64,000 nt of DNA, taken from Acidithiobacillus ferridurans (GTDB lineage Bacteria > Pseudomonadota > Gammaproteobacteria > Acidithiobacillales > Acidithiobacillaceae). The translations under genes were made by a program, and so were the position numbers. The stretch is from assembly GCF_003966655.1 (NCBI RefSeq), contig NZ_AP018795.1:2683501-2747500 (forward strand). The letters run 5' to 3'. The notes under the pieces are model-generated. The model had not been told where the DNA came from. It saw only the letters and a list, made by a program, of their open reading frames with translations, and made no database searches. This document shows positions 16,677 through 40,540 of this stretch, piece after piece. How positions within the stretch are numbered: the first letter of the stretch is position 1; the number at the start of each line of letters is the position of its first letter.

Positions 16677-17312
16677 CTGTTCACTGCGCTGGATGATTTG
16701 ATCGGCGCCCCAGTGCTGCGGGTCATTACCGGCCTCGAAGTAGCCCCAGGCCGCTGCCCAGCAGCGGGTTCCCGCGCCCCTGCCTGCTGCCATGTCGCGC
16801 GGATCGTCGCCGATCATGAGGCTGCGGGCCGCGCTGGCCCCCATCTCGGCGAGGGCGCGGGTGACCGGTAGCGGATCAGGCTTGGCGTGCGTCGTTGTAT
16901 CGCCGCTGACGATGGCGGCGGGGGCAACGGGCAGTTTGAGCGCGCTCAGCAAAGGCAGGGTCAGAAACCCCGGTTTATTGGTCACGACACCCCATGCCAT
17001 GCCGCGCTCCGACAGGGTCATCAGTGCTTTTGCCATACCCGGGAAAAGGGTGCTTCGTTCGCAGATATGGGCGGCATAAATCTCCAGAAACTCCGCTCGC
17101 AGGGACGCAAAATCCGGGTCCTCCGGCTGCACCTGAAAAGCCACCCGCAAAAGGCCGCGGGCGCCCTGGGAAGCGACCGGGCGGAGCATTTCCAGGGGCA
17201 TGGCCGGCAACCCGCGTTCGATACGCATCCGATTGGCTGTGGCTCCGAGATCGGGAGCCGTATCCACCAGGGTGCCATCGAGATCGAAAAGTACGGCCGC
17301 CTGTTCAGACAT
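16638..17312 (-). CDS. gph: HAD hydrolase, phosphoglycolate phosphatase-like
   Basis: A 224-residue HAD-superfamily phosphatase. Motif I is LFDLDGTLVDTAPD with the nucleophile Asp, motif II is VVTNKPG, the conserved Lys lies in THAKPDPLP, and motif IV is MIGDDPRDMAAGRGAG. It overlaps ubiG by 8 bases. A gph-type phosphatase directly after ubiG is a known proteobacterial arrangement. Hydrolysis of 2-phosphoglycolate would suit an autotroph, where RuBisCO makes this by-product, but HAD substrates cannot be fixed from sequence; MupP-like N-acetylmuramate phosphate phosphatases have the same neighbourhood. Confidence 0.87.
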   Translation of the reverse strand: MSEQAAVLFDLDGTLVDTAPDLGATANRMRIERGLPAMPLEMLRPVASQGARGLLRVAFQVQPEDPDFASLRAEFLEIYAAHICERSTLFPGMAKALMTLSERGMAWGVVTNKPGFLTLPLLSALKLPVAPAAIVSGDTTTHAKPDPLPVTRALAEMGASAARSLMIGDDPRDMAAGRGAGTRCWAAAWGYFEAGNDPQHWGADQIIQRSEQLEFALLHFDAPE

Positions 17313-24981: not shown

Positions 24982-27135
24982 GTGAACCAGCAAAACATCT
25001 CCGCACTCATCTGGGCCGTGGCCGACTTGCTCCGGGGCGACTTCAAGCAATCCGAATATGGGCGGGTGATTCTGCCCTTCACCGTCCTGCGGCGACTGGA
25101 TTGCGTGCTCGCCCCCACGCGGGCGGCGGCCCTCGCCGAATACCGCGCAAAATCCGCAGCCAAGCTGCCCTTCGTGGAATTCGTCCGGCGTGCGGCCGGG
25201 CAGTCCTTTTTCAATCTCTTCCCCAGGACCTGCCGGGACTACTGGGTGACGCCGACAATCTGCGCAATAACCTGCAAGCCTATGTGCGGGCCTTTTCCAC
25301 GGACGTGCAAGACATCTTCACCCGCTTCGATTTTCCCGCCACCATCGAGCGGCTGCACAAGGCGGGGCTGCTGTATCTCGTCACCGAGAAATTCACCAGC
25401 CTCAACCTGCATCCCGACGCCCTCAGCAATTACCAGATGGGCCTGCTGTTCGAGGAACTCCTGCGGCGTTTCGCGGAGATGTCCAACGAAACGGCCGGAG
25501 AGCACTTTACGCCGCGGGAAGTCATTCACCTGATGGTGGAACTCCTGTTTACGGAAGATGACGCGGCGCTGGCCCGGGGTGGCATCGTCCGCACCTTGTA
25601 CGACCCGGCGGCAGGCACCGGCGGGATGCTTTCGGTGGCGGCGGAGCATCTGCACAGTCTCAATCCCGACGCCCGCCTGACCATGTTCGGCCAGGAACTC
25701 AATGACGAATCCTACGCCACCTGCAAAGCGGATATGCTCATTCGCGGCCAGGATGTGGCCAATATCGTTCCGGGGAACACCCTGTCCGACGACGGCCATC
25801 GCGGCAAGCACTTCGATTACATGCTGTCCAACCCGCCCTTCGGCGTCGAGTGGAAGAAAGTCGAGGCCACTGTCCGCGAAGAACACGAGGACATGGGCTA
25901 CCGGGGACGCTTCGGCCCCGGACTGCCGCGCATCTCCGATGGCTCCCTGCTGTTTCTCCTGCACCTGCTATCCAAAATGCGCCCAGAGAAGGAGGGCGGC
26001 AGCCGTATCGGCATCGTCCTCAACGGCTCGCCGCTGTTCACCGGCAGCGCCGGCAGCGGGGAGTCGGAGATTCGCCGCTACGTGCTGGAACAGGATTATG
26101 TGGAAGCCATCGTGGCGTTACCCACGGATATGTTCTTCAACACCGGTATCGCCACTTATGTGTGGATACTCACCAACCGCAAGCCGGAGGAGAAACGCGG
26201 GAAAGTACAACTCAATCGACGGTTCCGGTTTCTGGCGCAAGATGCGCAAGAGTCTGGGCTCCAAGCGCCGGGAACTCGCCCCGGAACACATCAAGGCGAT
26301 TTCGCAAATGCTGGGCGTCGGGGAGGCACTGGACCAGGCGGTACTCCTCGATGCCGAGGGCAAGGAGCGCACGCGGGTGGTGCTGTTCGAGGGCACTCCG
26401 GTACCGGAACCCGTAGACGGGGGTACCGTGAAAGTCCGTCCCGTCTCCAGGATATTTCGCATGACGGACTTCGGTTATCGCACCGTCACCGTGGAAAGGC
26501 CCCTGCGGCTGCGATTCCAGATGACTCCGGAACGTCTGCAGGAATACGAAGGAAAACTGCGGGAGAAACTGGACGGGAATGGGCGTGGACCGAGACGGGT
26601 CCGCAGCGTCGAGGCCCAGGCACAGGCCCTCCGTGAGATGGATGGGTTACTGGATGACGCCGAAGCCGTGTTCCAGGCGTTTGGAGACACCCCTGATGAC
26701 AACTGGAACACCCTGTGGCCGCGCATCGAGGGGATTCTGGAAGCCCGAGGCAGCCGCTATACCCCGGCAAGCCGCAAGGCGTTCCGGGACGCGTTCACGG
26801 AATCCTGCCCGGATGCGGCACCCGTGGAAAGCGGGAAGCGTAACGGCCCGAAGTATGAGCCGGATTCCGGGCTGCGGGACACGGAGAACGTGCCCCTGGG
26901 CGAGGACGTGTACGCGTATTTCCAGCGGGAAGTCCTGCCCCATGTCCCGGATGCGTGGATTGACGAATCCAAACGGGACGCAAAGGACGGCAAAGTGGGC
27001 GTAGTCGGGTATGAGATACCCTTCAACCGGCATTTCTACGTGTTCGAGCCGCCCCGGAGTCTGGCGGAGATTGATGCGGATTTGAAGGCGTGCACCGGGC
27101 GGATACTCCGAATGCTGGGGGAGATGTCGGCATAA
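24982..27135 (+). pseudogene. hsdM: Type I restriction-modification DNA methyltransferase HsdM, two frameshifts
   Basis: Adenine-N6 methyltransferase subunit, readable across three frames. It starts [20 protein letters not shown]. The frame shifts at the CCCC of 25221-25224 (one C short) into [13 protein letters not shown] and the catalytic domain, with SAM motif [16 protein letters not shown] and motif [10 protein letters not shown]. It shifts back at 26214-26215 (one extra A) into [17 protein letters not shown] and a long C-terminal helical region. Repaired, the product is about 718 residues, normal for large HsdM proteins. Stops in both broken frames would give inactive fragments unless the breaks are sequencing errors. 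Downstream a VapBC pair separates it from hsdS. Confidence 0.88.
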
Positions 27136-27224
27136 ACGATGAGGGCAACTTGCCGCCACCCAGCAAAATGGTAAGCTGGTTTCATGGATGGCGTTGGCTA
27201 GTACCCCACGAGCAAGGAGGCATC

Positions 27225-27530
27225 ATGAAAACCACCCTGGACTTACCGGATGAACTCATTCGCGAAGCGAAATTGCGGGCCGTCCTGCAAGGGCGCACGC
27301 TGCGCGATTTGGTGGCCGAGTACCTGCGACAGGGGATGGGAATGGCGGCGCCGAAACTGCCGACGTCACCCCCACGGGGTTCCGTGGTGGAGCTGGATGA
27401 GGGCGGTTTACCGTTCATCCGCGGACATGCCGACGCACCGGCGCTCCATATGAGCCTTGCTGAGTTGATTGCACTGGAACAAACCGCTCAAGCTGAGGAG
27501 GATGCGCGTCGTGCCGGGTTCCCTGTTTGA
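27225..27530 (+). CDS. VapB-type antitoxin
   Basis: A 101-residue protein starting MKTTLDLPDELIREAKLRAV, a ribbon-helix-helix N-terminus (residues 1-45) that binds operator DNA as a dimer. The C-terminal tail (LHMSLAELIALEQTAQAEED) should wrap the toxin. An AAGGAGG ribosome site precedes it. The PIN toxin frame begins before its stop, a standard antitoxin-toxin arrangement with autoregulation by the complex. The pair sits between hsdM and hsdS. Confidence 0.82.
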   Translation: MKTTLDLPDELIREAKLRAVLQGRTLRDLVAEYLRQGMGMAAPKLPTSPPRGSVVELDEGGLPFIRGHADAPALHMSLAELIALEQTAQAEEDARRAGFPV

Positions 27531-27960
27531 TACCAGCGTGTGGCTGGCGGTGGTATTCACCCGACATCCTTTCCACGAAAGCGCTCGGAAAGCGCTGCAG
27601 GAGGCGACGGCATCCTACCCTGCCGTATTTTGTCGGGCAACCCAGCAAAGTTTTCTGCGGCTGGCTTCTACGCCGACGCTGTTCAAAGCCTATGGAGTAG
27701 ACAGCATGAGCAACAGGGATGCTTTAGTCGCGTTGGATGCCCTGCAGTCTTCTCCGCGTGTTTGCGTTCGCGAAGAGGCTCCTGACGTTTTCTCCCTCTG
27801 GCGGATACTGGCCACCCGCGACACCGCCTCTCCCAAGGTGTGGATGGACGCCTATCTTGCCGCCTTCGCACTGGCCGGAGGGTTACGCCTCGCCACTCTG
27901 GACGGTGATTTCAAGAACTTCACCGCACACGGCCTGGATTGGGTTTTGGTGAACGCGTGA
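27502..27960 (+). CDS. VapC-type PIN-domain toxin
   Basis: A 152-residue PIN-domain ribonuclease. Acidic active-site residues are visible in SLFDTSVWLAVVF (residues 7-19), around NRDALVALDAL, in VWMDAYLAAFALAGG and in LATLDGDFKNF. VapC toxins cut tRNA or rRNA when VapB is degraded. The ATG at 27502 touches the AGGAGG inside vapB; the GTG at 27511 has better ribosome-site spacing, so the true N-terminus may be three residues shorter. It overlaps the antitoxin gene by 29 bases. Confidence 0.85.
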   Translation: MRVVPGSLFDTSVWLAVVFTRHPFHESARKALQEATASYPAVFCRATQQSFLRLASTPTLFKAYGVDSMSNRDALVALDALQSSPRVCVREEAPDVFSLWRILATRDTASPKVWMDAYLAAFALAGGLRLATLDGDFKNFTAHGLDWVLVNA

Positions 27961-27986: not shown

Positions 27987-28100
27987 TGGAAAGACGTAAC
28001 CAAGGGCAGCAAGGTGGGCATCATGGGGTGTGAGATATCGGGTATCCGGCCTTTCTACGTGTTCGAGCCGCCCGGGAGTCTGGCGGAGGTGGCGATATGA
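27987..28100 (+). pseudogene. Duplicated hsdM 3'-end remnant in front of hsdS
   Basis: The 37 codons ending at TGA 28098-28100 translate to GSKVGIMGCEISGIRPFYVF followed by EPPGSLAEVAI. This matches the C-terminus of the upstream HsdM (GKVGVVGYEIPFNRHFYVF, EPPRSLAEIDADL). The DNA shares the exact run TTTCTACGTGTTCGAGCCGC. The TGA overlaps the hsdS ATG (ATGA), so this piece appears to keep the original hsdM-hsdS junction, with the VapBC pair lying between the two hsdM tails. Confidence 0.8.
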
Positions 28101-29422
28101 CATATCCACGTTATCCAAAATACAGGGAATCGGGTGTCGAGTGGTTGGGGGATGTGCCTGAGGGGTGGGGAGTAGTCAGAACAAGGTGGCTGTTTTCCAT
28201 AAAGAAGAATATCTCTGGAGAGTTGGGTTATGACATTCTATCTGTAACGCAACAAGGAATTCGAATAAAAGACATTGAAGGAAATAATGGTCAGTTTTCT
28301 ATGGATTACGCTAAATACCAGATAGTTGACGTTGGTGATTTTGTAATGAATCATATGGATTTATTGACAGGATACGTCGATATATCCAAATTTCTCGGGG
28401 TTACGAGCCCAGACTACAGAGTATTTACGATAAGAAAGCCAACAGACTGTCACTATAAGTATTTCCTATATGTATTTCAAATGGGTTACAAAAATAAGAT
28501 TTTCTATGCGTTTGGTCAGGGCAGTTCTCATTTAGGAAGGTGGAGGCTTCCCGCGGAGCAATTTAATAATCTTTCCTTGCCATTTCCTCCTCTCTCTGAA
28601 CAAAAAACTATCGCCGCATTCCTCGATGCCGAAACCGCCCGCATAGATACCCTCATTACTGAATACGAAACCCTCATCGACTTGCTGAAAGAGAAACGGC
28701 AGGCCCTCATCAGCCAAGCGGTGACGAAGGGGCTGAACCCAGATGCTCCGATGAAGGATTCCGGGGTGGAGTGGCTGGGGGATGTACCGGAGCATTGGAG
28801 CGTGAGGCAGCTTCGCTTTATCGCAAATCTGAATCCATCCAAAAGCGAATGCTCAAACATTGGTGAAGATGAGGAGGTCTCATTTTTACCAATGGAGGCT
28901 ATTGGGGATGACGGCTCGCTAAATCTTGAGCATGTGAAACCAATCAACGAGGTTAATTCTGGTTACACATATTTCCGCAATGGAGATGTGACTATCGCTA
29001 AGATTACGCCCTGCTTTGAGAATGGAAAAGGCGCAGTAATGAGTGGACTTAAAGGGCACATAGGGTTTGGCACAACTGAGTTAATTGTTGTGAGGCCGGA
29101 GCAGAATATATCCATTAGCGAATATATCCACTTGATTTTTGTTTCTGCATATTTTCGTAAATTAGGTGAATCATGGATGTATGGTGCTGGCGGGCAAAAA
29201 AGAGTACCCGACGAATTCGTGCGTAATTTCAAGATAGGGGTTCCACCTGTCGATGAACAACACGCCATCGCCGCATTTCTCGATACAGAAACTTCCCGCA
29301 TGGACATCCTCGTTCAGGAAGCGGAAAACGGCATCAATCTACTCCGGGAGCGCCGGATGACGCTCATTTCAGATGCGGTGACAGGAAAAATTGATGTGCG
29401 TGACTGGAAAGGAGTTGCGTAA
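28097..29422 (+). CDS. hsdS: Type I restriction-modification specificity subunit HsdS
   Basis: A 441-residue subunit that reads the two halves of the DNA target. Its two halves are built alike: each starts with SGVEWLGDVPE (about residues 11 and 222), continues with a variable target-recognition domain, and ends in a conserved spacer helix (SEQKTIAAFLDAETARIDTL and DEQHAIAAFLDTETSRMDIL). The recognition domains are clearly more AT-rich than hsdM and hsdR, as expected for horizontally exchanged specificity modules. It is the only fully open hsd gene here. It starts in an ATGA overlap with the hsdM-tail remnant, and its TAA overlaps the next ATG. Confidence 0.93.
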   Translation: MTYPRYPKYRESGVEWLGDVPEGWGVVRTRWLFSIKKNISGELGYDILSVTQQGIRIKDIEGNNGQFSMDYAKYQIVDVGDFVMNHMDLLTGYVDISKFLGVTSPDYRVFTIRKPTDCHYKYFLYVFQMGYKNKIFYAFGQGSSHLGRWRLPAEQFNNLSLPFPPLSEQKTIAAFLDAETARIDTLITEYETLIDLLKEKRQALISQAVTKGLNPDAPMKDSGVEWLGDVPEHWSVRQLRFIANLNPSKSECSNIGEDEEVSFLPMEAIGDDGSLNLEHVKPINEVNSGYTYFRNGDVTIAKITPCFENGKGAVMSGLKGHIGFGTTELIVVRPEQNISISEYIHLIFVSAYFRKLGESWMYGAGGQKRVPDEFVRNFKIGVPPVDEQHAIAAFLDTETSRMDILVQEAENGINLLRERRMTLISDAVTGKIDVRDWKGVA

Positions 29423-30226
29423 TGGAATATTTGGCAAAAAAGCACGGCTTGTGGCTGGAAGGGGCGTATTCTCACTTACGCCTCATAACTCCACCGCCTG
29501 TTGTGCTCCCTTTTAGCTTGAATAGTGGCGTGAACGGTAATGTTTATGTTTTCTGTGAGGACTATTTTGATTCTGCGACTCGTGTTCGTAGAGGTCGGCT
29601 TTACCAATCTTCTGGTAGAGATGGAGACCGCTTCGAAAATGTGAGCCTTTTCCCATATCCCAGTCCATCCAAAGGTTGTCCAATAGATGAAATATATGAG
29701 ACTGCAAACCTGAATATCAAAGCAGGACAAGAAGTAATTCTCGGCGACAATCTGGCGCAAACATGTTGGACCGTTGTTCTGGCTGAACGCAGAGGGCGTG
29801 ACGCCTATTACATCACACTTAAGTCGAAAACCTTCCTTGGCGTATTACCGGAATTATTATCCGAAGAGATTCCACCAAACAACCGCGAGGATATCCACAG
29901 AGCCATGAATGCCGTCGTGGAGGCCGCATCCGTGCAAGCCCCCCAGCCAGTTATCGATGCCTGCCGGGTTGCCGCTACACATATGCTGCTTGCTATGTAT
30001 CCGCAAATCACTAAAAAACGAGCTGGGGCAAATAGTCGGGAAGCTGGACAATGGGTCGTGTATCCAGTCTGCCGCTAATCTCATTAACAAGCTGCACTCT
30101 CGCGCAAAGCCATCGGGAGCCGCTAATAACGATACCCGCCCCGTGTCGCAGCGCGACGCCGATTTGGCCGTGAGCGCAATCGCGTTTCTCTTGCAAGACT
30201 TCGGATGGGCGGAGCAAGCATTATGA
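29422..30226 (+). pseudogene. Unknown protein coupled to hsdS, frameshift in an A6 run
   Basis: An unrecognised soluble protein starting MEYLAKKHGLWLEGAYSHLR, with its ATG inside the hsdS stop (TAATG). The frame ends at 30078. The continuation NELGQIVGKLDNGSCIQSAA, running to a stop at 30226, is in the next frame. Removing one A from the AAAAAA at 30013-30018 joins both into about 267 codons. The joined frame then overlaps the following gene by 4 bases (ATGA), which argues that the longer protein is the original. An A6 run can also slip in transcription. Alternatively this is sequencing error or decay. Function is unknown; position suggests an accessory role in the restriction locus. Confidence 0.6.
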
Positions 30227-30957
30227 AGCCGCTAGCTACAACATGGTGTACCTATTATGCAGGATTTGCCGAGCAGCCTCCCGATGAACTGCTAGACATC
30301 GGTTTTCTCAACGAAAAATACCGTTCTCGACCATTTTACTACCCCATGGCGAAAGGGAATATTCGGGAGTTTCCCACCGTTGAACAGTGGTATAACTATG
30401 TACAAAGTCTCCGCATTCCACCCCATCAGATACCCCTTCCTTATCTTGATGCCTTCGATGAGGCCTTAAGGGCATTATTCATGACCTACCTTCTCCCGGA
30501 GTTTTGTAAAATGGCGGAGATGAAGGCGTTATCGACCCTGGAAGCCGCCCTGAAAGACGCGTATCATCATCAAATGTGTAAGCAAACGGCCCGGAAAACG
30601 AAGCCCAAAGCCGGCGAAAGTTCTACAGGGTCCGTACACCGATGTGCCGCGTTGGCAGATTGTTTGGAGTGGGCTGAACAACACGACGGTCTAGAGCCAA
30701 ACCTGTTTGATAAGTCAATTGGCCAGAGAAGGCCAGAAGCATTGAATGTCATCCGGGATAAACAGATGCATGGTAAACTTGAGGAGATGTTTCCGTGGGG
30801 TGGGTTATTTGAAGTTATCAAAAGTACCGTTGGCTACGCCTTCCGAAATTGGACCATCTATGACATTCATCAGTTGAGGGCCGTAAATATGGCCACCCGT
30901 GCGGGATTCCCCGACTCTTCCTTTGGGCAGTGGCAAGATTTTCCTATAACAGCGTGA
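30223..30957 (+). CDS. Unknown protein, last gene of the hsdS operon
   Basis: A 244-residue soluble protein starting MKPLATTWCTYYAGFAEQPP at an ATGA overlap with the gene before. A longer upstream start (30205) is less likely. I recognise no family. It is predicted helical, rich in aromatic residues, with a charged patch (ARKTKPKAGESS) near residue 125 and Cys-containing segments (HQMCKQT, VHRCAALADCLEW). The coupled order hsdS - unknown - unknown suggests joint expression with the specificity subunit. Confidence 0.6.
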   Translation: MKPLATTWCTYYAGFAEQPPDELLDIGFLNEKYRSRPFYYPMAKGNIREFPTVEQWYNYVQSLRIPPHQIPLPYLDAFDEALRALFMTYLLPEFCKMAEMKALSTLEAALKDAYHHQMCKQTARKTKPKAGESSTGSVHRCAALADCLEWAEQHDGLEPNLFDKSIGQRRPEALNVIRDKQMHGKLEEMFPWGGLFEVIKSTVGYAFRNWTIYDIHQLRAVNMATRAGFPDSSFGQWQDFPITA

Positions 30958-31057: not shown

Positions 31058-31897
31058 ATGAATGAAAAGTTCTCTAAGAGACACGGATACCAGCAAGCGC
31101 ACGAAACAGAGATTATTGTGCGGCAAGACGCTCCGCATGAACTGCGTGGAATTGTTGTTCAGCTTGCTTACGATTGCGGATTTCAACCGAAAAGCCTTCG
31201 CTCACTTGTATGCCGCATACTAAGAAAACGGTCGGATTCAAACAATTGGTCTGAGTACCCAAACATGGACGATGAAGTACATGACCTCGTTGATGGCTGT
31301 GACTGGTATCGGGTCTACGACATCATAGAGGATATCTCCGGTGCCATGCGCGAGACCCCTTACTCTTATGAACCCCAAAAGTTCGAGAACGAAATAAACG
31401 ACTACTTCCTCGAAAATGGTATTGGCTGGAAATTATCGAACGGCAAGGTTAAGATGCGCGGCCCCGAAGTATTCGAGGGAATTATAGACACTGCGGAGTG
31501 GCAGCTTGAAGCAAAAAACTTCAGTAACGCCAGGAATGAACTCCATGAGGCGCGCCGTGATTTGTCTCGGCGTCCTGCCCCTGATATCACTGGTGGAATT
31601 CAGCATTCAATGGCGGCGCTCGAATGTGTGGCTCGTGAGGCTTGTGGTGACGCCAAGGCCACTCTCGGCGATATCATGAAACGTTACCCGGATATCGTTC
31701 CTCGGCCTCTTGATGAGGCCATCGCAAAAGCCTGGGGTTACGCTTCGGAAAATGCACGCCATATCCGCGAAGGGAGGGAGCCAACATTCGAGGAAGCGGA
31801 GTTGGCTGTCGGCATGGTTGCTGCCCTCGCAACATATTTGGGCGAAAACATGGGGTATAACTATGCGCTCAGGCATGACAAACCAAAAGCGGCGTGA
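31058..31897 (+). CDS. AbiJ-NTD4-like abortive-infection-type protein
   Basis: A 279-residue protein. The N-terminal 110 residues (FSKRHGYQQAHETEIIVRQD, then WYRVYDIIEDISGA) resemble the AbiJ N-terminal domain 4. The C-terminal part (IQHSMAALECVAREACGDAK, ATLGDIMKRYP) resembles the helical C-terminal domain found with AbiJ/abortive-infection proteins. A phage-defence role is inferred from those domains and from its place beside a restriction system. The attC-like site begins inside the last 14 codons, so the final residues are encoded by recombination-site DNA. Confidence 0.7.
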   Translation: MNEKFSKRHGYQQAHETEIIVRQDAPHELRGIVVQLAYDCGFQPKSLRSLVCRILRKRSDSNNWSEYPNMDDEVHDLVDGCDWYRVYDIIEDISGAMRETPYSYEPQKFENEINDYFLENGIGWKLSNGKVKMRGPEVFEGIIDTAEWQLEAKNFSNARNELHEARRDLSRRPAPDITGGIQHSMAALECVAREACGDAKATLGDIMKRYPDIVPRPLDEAIAKAWGYASENARHIREGREPTFEEAELAVGMVAALATYLGENMGYNYALRHDKPKAA

Positions 31898-31917
31898 CCA
31901 TTAGCTTTATGTTAGTT
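31855..31917 (+). repeat. attC-like recombination site 1
   Basis: R''-like GTATAAC at 31855, TGCGCTCA core, terminal TTAGCTTTATGTTAG with R' at 31911. It is 63 bp and overlaps the 3' end of the AbiJ-like gene. Confidence 0.75.
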
Positions 31918-32423: not shown

Positions 32424-32540
32424 ATGGGATTTACGCTGGATAAAGTTGTACCGTGGGGACGTTCGTATGACGAAACGGGCGCAAAAAAACAGCGCGCCGC
32501 TTATCGTTACGTTAGGGATACATCGGATGTTACTTGCTGA
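32424..32540 (+). pseudogene. Cassette with truncated methyltransferase-like start
   Basis: A 38-codon ORF. The first 17 residues (MGFTLDKVVPWGRSYDE) resemble the N-terminus of a class I SAM-dependent methyltransferase family often carried in cassettes. The remaining codons run through attC site 3 and stop at 32540. The body of the enzyme is missing, so this is read as a deletion remnant that left the gene start joined to the recombination site. The methyltransferase identification is from memory of the family's N-terminal pattern. Confidence 0.45.
32461..32517 (+). repeat. attC-like recombination site 3
   Basis: It contains GGGCGCAAAAAAACAGCGCGCC and the terminal TTATCGTTACGTTAGGG, with R' at 32511. 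The R'' box is degenerate. Confidence 0.6.
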
Positions 32541-33474: not shown

Positions 33475-33537
33475 ACATAACACTGCGCTCAGTCATGGCG
33501 AGCAAAAATCGCACAAACCCTTAGCTACACGTTGGTC
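33475..33537 (+). repeat. attC-like recombination site 4
   Basis: R''-like ACATAAC, then CTGCGCTCAGTCATGGCGAG, and the terminal CCCTTAGCTACACGTTGGTC with R' at 33531. Very similar to sites 1 and 6. Confidence 0.8.
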
Positions 33538-35162: not shown

Positions 35163-35224
35163 ATCCACCCTGCGCTCAAGCGTGACAGCGCAAAAGCACG
35201 CGGCCCCTTAGCTACACGTTGGGC
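35163..35224 (+). repeat. attC-like recombination site 6
   Basis: CCTGCGCTCAAGCGTGACAG, then CCCCTTAGCTACACGTTGGG. R' GTTGGGC at 35218 is a perfect GTTRRRY. R'' reads ATCCACC. Confidence 0.85.
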
Positions 35225-36909: not shown

Positions 36910-37340
36910 GTCGGCCGCAACGGATTGTCATAGATACCAGCACCCTGGTGGGGGCGATGTTACATCCAGATTCCGTGCCGCGCCGCGCTTTCCTGACCGC
37001 AGTCCGGATAGGTGAGCTCTGTGTCACTGAAGCCACCTTGCAGGAAGTGCAGGAAGTGCTACAGAGGCCGAAATTCGACCGATTTATTCCGCTACAAGAC
37101 CGGCTGGATTTTCTCACCTTGGTATCCGGCCACGTCAGCATGTGGGAGATTCACGTCTCCAGCGAGCAGGCTGCGACAGGCGTATGCCGGGATGAGAAAG
37201 ATACGAAATTCCTCTCTCTGGCGTTGTCTTGCCGGGCGGACGTTCTCATTTCCAGCGATGGGGATTTGCTGGTCCTGCACCCTTGGCAAGGTGTGCCCAT
37301 TCTGACGCCATCAGCATTTCTGGAAAAAGTGAACTCATGA
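36906..37340 (+). CDS. PIN-family toxin paired with Phd antitoxin
   Basis: A 144-residue PIN-domain protein of the 'putative toxin component, PIN family' group. It has IVIDTSTLVGAMLHPDSVPR (first acidic residue about D10), VTEATLQEVQEVLQRPKFDR, CRDEKDTKFLSLALSCRADV and ISSDGDLLVL, giving the acidic RNase site. A TTG start overlaps the antitoxin stop (TTGA). Its own TGA overlaps the hsdR ATG (ATGA), so the toxin and the restriction subunit are translationally coupled. Confidence 0.88.
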   Translation: MSRPQRIVIDTSTLVGAMLHPDSVPRRAFLTAVRIGELCVTEATLQEVQEVLQRPKFDRFIPLQDRLDFLTLVSGHVSMWEIHVSSEQAATGVCRDEKDTKFLSLALSCRADVLISSDGDLLVLHPWQGVPILTPSAFLEKVNS

Positions 37341-40300
37341 GTCTGCACCAGGAAATCCACTTCGAGTCCGAAATCTGCGCCGACATGGCGGCTTCCGGCT
37401 GGCTCTACACGCCACCTGAAGGCACCACCCTGAGCCCGGATGCCTCGGGCTACAACGCCGAATTCGCCATTTTTCCCGATGACTTGCGCGACTGGATGGC
37501 CGCTTCTCAACCGGAAACCTGGGAGAAGCTGGTTCAGGGGCACGGCGACAGGGCACTTACCGAAGTGATGGCCCGCCTGCGCAAGGCGCTGGACACCCCA
37601 GGGCACTCTTTACGTCCTGCGCCACGGCATCGAAATGCTGGGCTTGCGGCATCCCATTGCGCTGGCCCAGTTCAAACCCGCCTCGGGCATGAACCAGGAA
37701 CTTGCGGCCCGCTACCAGGCCAACCGGCTCAGGGTGGTGCGGCAAGTCCATTACTCGGCGCACGACACGGGCCGCAGCCTGGACCTCGTACTGTTCCTGA
37801 ACGGTCTGCCCGTCGCCACGGCGGAACTCAAGACGGATTACACCCAGGCGGTAGAGAACGCGGTCTATCAATACAAGCGGGACAGGCATCCCCGGCCGCC
37901 GGAGCGGAACACGCCCGAGCCCCTGCTGAGCTTTCCCGGTGGCGCGCTGGTACATTTTGCCGTCAGCAACTCCGAAGTGCGGATGACCACGAAGCTCGCG
38001 GGCATGGACACCCGTTTCCTGCCCTTCAACCAGGGGAATCAGGGCGGTGCCGGGAATCCCGCCAATCCGAGCGGCATCGCCACCGACTATCTCTGGAAAT
38101 CCGTCTGGGCACCGACGTCCTGGCTGCAGATTCTGGGCCGCTATCTGGTACCAGTGCGGGACAAGAAGAAGCAACTGAAAGGCGTCGTTTTTCCCCGCTA
38201 CCACCAACTGGATTCCACGCGGAAAATCGTTTCCGCCGTACTCCGGGACGGGGCGGGCGACAAATACCTCATCCAACACTCGGCGGGCTCCGGCAAAACC
38301 CACAGCATTGCCTGGACCGCGCACATGCTGGCGGAATTGCATGACGAGACGGACCGCAAGATATTCGACAGCGTGATTGTCGTCTCGGACCGGACGGTAC
38401 TCGATGAACAGCTCCAGGAAGCCCTCATGGCCCATCAGCGGACGGCGGGCGTCGTGGCCGTCGTCAAAGGGGAGGGGGCTTCCAAAAGCCGGGAACTCTC
38501 CGAAGCCCTGGCCGCCAACAAGCAGATTATTGCCTGTACCCTGCAAACCTTCCCATTCACGCTGCAATACATCCAGGAACTCGCCGCCACGCGGGGGAAG
38601 CGTTTCGCCGTAGTGGCCGATGAGGCCCATTCCTCCCAGACGAACGAAACCGCGGCACGTCTCAAAGTTATACTCTCCGGAAGCATTCCCTTGCAGGGCG
38701 CCGCCACCGCCAGAGACGGGGCCGCACTCGAGATGGACGAGGTGGAGGACGTCTCCGTCGAAGACATGCTCGCCGCCGAGATGGAAGCCCGGGCCGCCGG
38801 TAAGGAAACCGGGATTACCTATGTGGCGTTCACCGCCACCCCCAAGGACAAGACCCTGCAACTGTTCGGCACCCGGCCATACCCGGAACGGTCGCCCAGT
38901 GACGAAGACAACAAGCCGGAACCTTTTCATGTGTATTCCATGCGCCAGGCCATCGAAGAGGAATTTATCCTCGACGTGCTGAAAAACTACACGCCTTACC
39001 AGTTGGCCTTCCAGTTGGCCCACGAGACCAGTGGTCAGCAGGAGGGCAAAAAACCCCCCGTCGTGGATGCCGGTACCGCCACGGCGGGCATCATGGGCTG
39101 GGTGCAGCTGCACAGCTATAACATCGCCCAGCACGTCCAGATTGTGGTGGAGCACTTTCGCAAATTCGTGATGCCGCTCTTAGATGGACAAGCCAAGGCC
39201 ATGGTGGTGACCAGCTCCCGCCTGGAAGCGGTACGCTGGCATCTGGCCATGCGCAAGTACATCGCCTCCCGTGGCTACGCCCTCAATACCCTTGTCGCCT
39301 TCTCCGGGGAGGTGGAAGATACGGAATCCTTCGACAAGCCGGTATCGGAAACCAGCCGGGACCTGAACCCCGGCCTGAAAGCACGCAGCATCCGCAAGGC
39401 GTTCAGTTCCGAAAATGGTCATCGCGGCGAGTACGCCATTCTCCTCGTCGCCAACAAGTTCCAGACGGGCTTTGATGAACCCCTGCTCTGCGGGATGTAC
39501 GTCCACAAACGCCTGGATGGCATTCAGGCGGTGCAGACCCTCTCCCGCCTGAACCGGGCTTATCCCGGCAAGGACACCACCTATGTCGTGGATTTTGTGA
39601 ACAAGGGAGAGGACATCCTCAAGGCGTTCCAGCCCTACTATGAAACGGCGGAACTGGCCGGCGTCAGCAATCCGGACAGCATTTATGATTTGCGCGCCAA
39701 ACTCGACGCCCAGGAGTTTTATACCGCAGAGGACGTGGAGGCCGTGGTAAGCGCGGTGCTCCAGGGTGGCAAGCAGGCCCGCGTGGATGCGGTGTTGCGC
39801 CCCGTGGCGGATGCCCTCCTGCAGCGCTTTGCCAAGGCTCGCGTCCTCTGGCAGCAGCATCAGCCCGATGACGGGGACAGCGCTCCGGCACAGGCCGCCA
39901 AAGCCGAAATGGACGCCCTGTGGCTATTCAAGAAGGACATCGGCACCTATGTCCGCAGTTACAGCTTTCTCTCGCAGATTTTCGACTACGGCAACACCGA
40001 CATCGAAAAACGGGCGATTTTCTTCAAGCTCCTGCAGCGCTTGCTGACCTTTGGTCGGGATATCGAGGAGGTGGACCTCTCCGAACTGGCCCTGACTCAC
40101 CACACCCTGAAGGAGCTGGCGACGGAGAAGCTCTACCTCATCGGCGGAGAAAAGCTGACCCCTTCGGAGGCCGGGGCGGCATGGTGCGGGACAAGCACCG
40201 GGAGAGCCTCGACGCCATCATTCAGCGCGTCAACGAGATTTTTGTGGGACACATCAGCGATAATGACAAGCTGGTGTATGTGAATGACGTCATCATGGGC

Positions 40301-40540
40301 AAGCTCATAGACTGCGAACTCCTCATCGAACAGGCCGCCAACAACACCAAGGAACAGTTCGCCAATTCCCCGGACCTGGACCGGCTGATTCTTGACGCCA
40401 TCATGGAGGCCATGGCCTCGTTTACGTCCATGAGCACCCAGGCCCTCGAATCCGCCCGCATCCGGGCCGAGTTGAAGGATATCCTGCTGGGGCCGGCAGG
40501 ATTGTATGAAAGGTTGCGGGAGGGGAGGGAGGGGCGGTAG
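37337..40540 (+). pseudogene. hsdR: Type I restriction endonuclease HsdR, two frameshifts
   Basis: ATP-dependent motor/nuclease subunit. It starts MSLHQEIHFESEICADMAAS. The frame changes at GGG 37601-37603 (one extra base) into YVLRHGIEMLGLRHPIALAQF-type sequence with the nuclease ExK motif (VATAELKTDYTQAVENAVYQ). Helicase motif I is IQHSAGSGKTHSIAW, motif II VVADEAHSS, motif III YVAFTATP, and motif VI QTLSRLNRAYPGKD. A second break at about 40173-40176 (one base short) leads into GMVRDKHRESLDAIIQRVNE and the end at 40540. Repaired, it is about 1068 residues, normal for this family. As written, the nuclease N-terminus and the C-terminal tail are cut off. Confidence 0.88.

Follow-up and report, generated by a model that had tools for sequence, protein, structure and literature searches.

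Two genes directly downstream of hsdS in Acidithiobacillus ferridurans JCM 18981, here referred to as X and Y, are on balance probably accessory genes of a decaying type I RM operon, and by analogy with PrrC they would contribute a HEPN-type RNase that is released when restriction fails. In the best reading, the X family is new and the arrangement is of a known kind. The stretch of DNA analyzed (the window) is 64,000 nt long, and all parts of the operon are on its plus strand (Table 1). The original prediction described hsdS, X and Y as joined by TAATG and ATGA overlaps – with X needing read-through of an A6 run – and this organization is confirmed.

Table 1. Features of the hsd operon and its surroundings within the window
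Feature	Coordinates	Strand	Description	Evidence
hsdM	24982..27135	+	two frame changes, near 25223 and 26216	tblastn; frameshift HMM; PADLOC MTase_I
vapB-like antitoxin	27222-27530	+	part of a vapBC pair between hsdM and hsdS	
vapC PIN toxin	27469-27960 (ORF; start uncertain)	+		Pfam PIN 2.9e-11; NCBIfam TIGR00028 1.2e-30
Older hsdM 3′-end remnant	28003..28100	+	ATGA overlap with hsdS start	direct sequence reading
hsdS	28097..29422	+	441 aa, intact	Pfam Methylase_S 1e-18; PADLOC Specificity_I 7.7e-120
TAATG stop/start overlap, hsdS-X	29420..29424	+	hsdS TAA shares bases with X ATG	
X	29422..30226	+	unnamed RM-associated family; 267 aa read through, 218 aa as written	
A6 run	30013..30018	+	X frame-change site	
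ATGA overlap, X-Y	30223..30226	+	TGA of X +1 frame overlaps Y ATG	
Y	30223..30957	+	244 aa, putative HEPN-type, with Rx4H	motif common to homologues
Z	31058..31897	+	AbiJ_NTD4 protein; PADLOC PDC-S32	Pfam PF18863 6.5e-25; PADLOC 1.9e-25
hsdR	37337..40501 (ends approximate)	+	frame changes near 37599 and 40162	homology; frameshift HMM

X as written stops at 30078, and when read across the A6 run it is open over 267 codons. An original protein of about 267 residues, as had been proposed, is borne out by intact full-length homologues, e.g. that of locus L004 (on a GTDB contig), an uninterrupted 275-aa protein with 52% identity across the whole joined length (residues 1-267). Chance does not account for the joined reading, as this homologue is collinear across the break and other intact ones are known. 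Additional homologues are found on six plasmids and in five other genomes, and from these relatives we conclude that joined X is a member of a conserved, unnamed protein family. The family is rare, with a few matches when approximately 1,000 genomes were searched with X sequences, and a search of viral contigs and phages yielded no relatives. The homologue in genome G460 (L044, 9124-10058) is also split in two frames, at a different position from X of the window. The gene had been called unknown, and it is indeed uncharacterized, with no model in Pfam, NCBIfam or PADLOC covering the family.

The invariant residues of X comprise an RRG motif near the N-terminus and, in the C-terminal third, a D, an R, the motif LHxRxK (L224, H225, R227 and K229 of joined X), and a second D. 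Secondary structure prediction gives, at low confidence, beta strands to about residue 135 followed by helices. The Rx4-6H motif of HEPN proteins was sought in X and is absent, with LHxRxK standing instead; one of 11 X members (that of L042) touches a Pfam HEPN model, PF05168, at E=0.0025, which is below the cut-off. Alignment of the X C-terminus with the C-terminus of AbiJ_NTD4 proteins by hhalign has a probability of 83% (P 9e-6), and this part of X, predicted to be all-helical, resembles the HEPN/AbiJ C-terminal domain and may adopt a HEPN fold. Comparison of the X profile with that of Y revealed no similarity, comparison with all PDB chains returned chance matches only, and Pfam searches found no AAA match in either protein. 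The AlphaFold2 model of X, built from a two-row alignment, has a mean pLDDT of 39. X may be a non-catalytic partner.

Y contains an Rx4H motif, R178-DKQM-H183 (RDKQMHG), near its C-terminal helix. R178 and H183 are invariant in the alignment, in which the homologues read RNxLAHG or similar. These homologues come from plasmids and genomes of alphaproteobacteria; they have in common the C-terminal RNxLAHG of HEPN RNases and sit in other short overlapping operons. Y matches nothing in Pfam, NCBIfam or PADLOC, its homologues have no Pfam match, and no relatives were found in viral contigs, plasmids or GTDB contigs with Y itself as the query. An AlphaFold2 model of Y from the single sequence is all-helical, with a mean pLDDT of 36. 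The conserved motif points to Y being a HEPN-type protein, with a predicted RNase activity.

Some Y homologues have neighbors with motifs of a similar kind. On two plasmids (L103, 3896-6515; L104, 3944-5856) the Y homologue is followed by a conserved protein of approximately 437 aa with a HEPN-like RSTFVHG motif, and the two genes on these alphaproteobacterial plasmids form a possible two-HEPN module, judged by their motifs. At L017 (9079-9951), the gene upstream of the Y homologue bears RNKMLHHG and is possibly a further HEPN protein.

RM operons frequently contain HEPN genes, which form at least 16 RM-associated clades and have been proposed to act as suicide effectors in the manner of PrrC, the worked example, being kept silent by the RM complex until a phage defeats it (Anantharaman et al. 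2013, PMC3710099). By analogy, X and Y fit the PrrC arrangement by position, and Y also fits it by motif. As with PrrC and the type Ic system EcoprrI, a HEPN RNase – putative here – is located inside the hsd operon and would serve as a second line when restriction fails. There are also clear differences, in that PrrC has an N-terminal ABC ATPase, whereas the N-terminal domain of X is small and beta-rich and Y lacks both kinds of domain; moreover, PrrC is an anticodon nuclease that the RM complex silences, and neither X nor Y is known to have tRNase activity. X and Y resemble the RM-associated HEPN clades in being HEPN-type genes embedded in an RM operon, but differ from them in matching no Pfam, NCBIfam or PADLOC model and, for X, in having LHxRxK rather than Rx4-6H. 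Z is itself a member of the AbiJ/AbiJ_NTD4 proteins, and the C-terminus of X aligns with their C-terminal domain, but the N-terminal domain of X is a different one, with no AbiJ_NTD match. An hsd operon of the same genus (L046) similarly carries toxin-like genes, Abi_2 and Fic, in the slots between hsdM, hsdS and hsdR, although these belong to other protein families than X and Y.

The association of X with RM genes extends beyond A. ferridurans. X is located directly 3′ of an RM gene in four of 12 other loci – hsdS twice, hsdM, and an MmeI-type gene – from which we conclude that its link to hsdS is real. At L042, X lies between hsdS and a GmrSD-type gene, with hsdM ahead of hsdS and, beyond the GmrSD-type gene, two further genes and then hsdR; the hsdM of this locus is a relative of that in the window (62% identity in the central part). 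At L043, hsdR, hsdM, hsdS and X are followed by a HipA-like gene, and at L014 hsdM immediately precedes X, in an RM operon with an AAA_13 gene as well; together with the window, these three loci represent the type I RM linkage. At L004, X follows the MmeI-type gene. Elsewhere, genes of BREX (L007), of Zorya together with a GmrSD-type gene (L009), or encoding an MmeI C-terminal part (L013) are present within a few kb of X. Y was searched for at the 12 X loci outside the window and is present at none of them. Beside other hsdS genes, X is found without Y (L042 and L043, in unrelated genomes), and the pair was seen in the window only. The proposal of X and Y as one module is therefore not supported, since X loci elsewhere have no Y and Y relatives occur in other contexts; the conserved unit is X with RM genes, not X with Y.

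Z starts 100 nt after Y, with the AbiJ_NTD4 domain covering residues 4-149, and it may belong to the cassette array that follows, as an attC-like repeat is present at its 3′ end. Attachment-site-like repeats are found at gene 3′ ends at 31857-31916, 33477-33536 and 35164-35223, with a weak one at 32501-32516, and suggest that the stretch from Z to hsdR is an integron-type cassette array. Its genes are polyketide cyclase-like, GNAT, cupin, hydrolase, SMR, DUF4440, GNAT, and toxin-antitoxin genes. Scanning with a strict attC motif gave no match.

These contexts bear on a possible but doubtful alternative, that X and Y came to lie behind hsdS as unrelated passengers of a defence island, with fortuitous overlaps of one and four bases and no functional RM link. 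Some X homologues stand alone, most of those on plasmids do not adjoin RM genes, Y relatives occur in other short operons, and Z and the later genes resemble an independent cassette array, all of which are as this alternative would have it. It accounts poorly, however, for the four independent loci in distant genomes at which X lies directly 3′ of RM genes.

The interpretation of X as an accessory gene has to take into account the state of the operon around it. By tblastn with an intact hsdM, the hsdM gene falls into three pieces in frames 1/3/1, and homology shows hsdR to be split also, with each gene having two frameshifts. A coding-frame HMM was used at a strict setting, as looser ones produced numerous false calls; further candidate frame changes, on the minus strand at 16682 and 62929, come from the looser settings. 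At the strict setting four frameshifts are called in the window, all of them in hsdM and hsdR (approximately 5.2 kb). The genome consists of one contig of 2,921,399 bases, and a 400-kb sample taken elsewhere in it (335 kb coding) has four calls, or 1.2 per 100 kb coding, compared to one call in 400 kb, or 0.3 per 100 kb coding, in comparison genome G014. The expected number in hsdM and hsdR is 0.06 versus four observed (Poisson P about 6e-7). The HMM does not call the break in X, which rests on homology. The simplest account is that the whole RM operon has decayed and that the break in X is one more null mutation, decay being inferred over a local sequencing fault.

There are also signs of rearrangement in this region. 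The remnant at 28003-28100 reads ...YVFEPPGSLAEV, resembling the end of the present hsdM, ...YVFEPPRSLAEI, by direct sequence reading. This degenerate second hsdM 3′ end adjoins hsdS, and vapBC separates it from the present hsdM. With a second hsdM 3′ end and vapBC in between, the hsd operon has probably been rebuilt by recombination. In genome G006 of the same genus (L045, 9743-10975) only the C-terminal part of hsdM is present beside vapB-like sequence, with 94% DNA identity.

It is improbable, in our judgment, that the frame changes are sequencing errors and that the living strain has an undamaged operon, X included. The assembly does derive from a single technology (PacBio RS II only; PMC6256440), the changes are of single bases and mostly within short homopolymer runs, and the remainder of X has no in-frame stops. 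Nonetheless, the reported coverage is 283x (PMC6256440), errors are not expected to cluster in one operon, the rest of the genome is clean at the strict setting, and the G006 relative retains just the hsdM fragment. Genome-wide PacBio error as the sole cause of the breaks was rejected, because the coding-frame HMM finds the rest of the genome clean.

It had also been suggested that the A6 run could permit transcriptional slippage giving both short and long forms of X, and this does not survive comparison with the homologues. At the position of the break an A-run is absent in all ten homologues inspected, which have no frame break there either, and the L004 homologue reads GGCAAGAAGGAC at the matching place. 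A -1 ribosomal slip at A6 leads into a frame with only six codons before its stop (KTSWGK), and the shift needed to restore the X frame is +1 or -2. Homopolymers of at least six A or T occur 53 times in the window, three of them in frame within unbroken parts of hsdS and X (28602, 29196 and 29436), and thus an A6 run is unremarkable; it is also shorter than the runs usually required for strong transcriptional slippage. Although the frame after A6 is open up to the ATGA overlap with Y, programmed slippage that deliberately yields both a 218-aa and a 267-aa product is very unlikely, given these observations and the frameshifts in the neighboring hsdM and hsdR. The break deletes the end of the X helical domain and parts the X stop codon from the Y start, which argues for a null mutation and not a regulatory slip site, and since the neighboring restriction genes are broken likewise, it is most likely ordinary decay.

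Of the two roles suggested for an accessory module, a second defence layer is the best reading, and anti-restriction control finds no support in sequence or context. In the PrrC-like scheme that we favor, X and Y would be RM accessory genes in an operon of the order hsdM-hsdS-X-Y ... hsdR, with Y a HEPN-type RNase as predicted from its motif, and X a protein that joins a beta-rich N-terminal domain to a helical, HEPN/AbiJ-like C-terminal one. Encoded on one mRNA with the RNase and linked to it by translational coupling, the RM complex would keep the RNase silent, and a phage that blocks or overwhelms the RM enzyme would release the RNase, leading to a shutdown of translation. In JCM 18981 such a system would be in decay, with hsdM, hsdR and X frameshifted. 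Cells that lose hsdM would then be under selection to lose the RNase too, and an intact Y would have to be unexpressed or harmless; this hypothesis would fit the broken X, although decay can also be ordered differently. An unlikely extension is that X represents a new family of RNases gated by RM, in which LHxRxK replaces Rx4-6H and the beta-rich N-terminus senses HsdMS, its loss being a suppressor that permits survival of hsdM loss.

The X family joins the candidate second-line genes that travel in type I and MmeI-type restriction operons. A further lesson is that a frame break at a homopolymer is to be judged alongside the state of the entire operon. If the RM enzyme does silence the RNase, the RNase must go with or before hsdM, which would provide a testable order of events.
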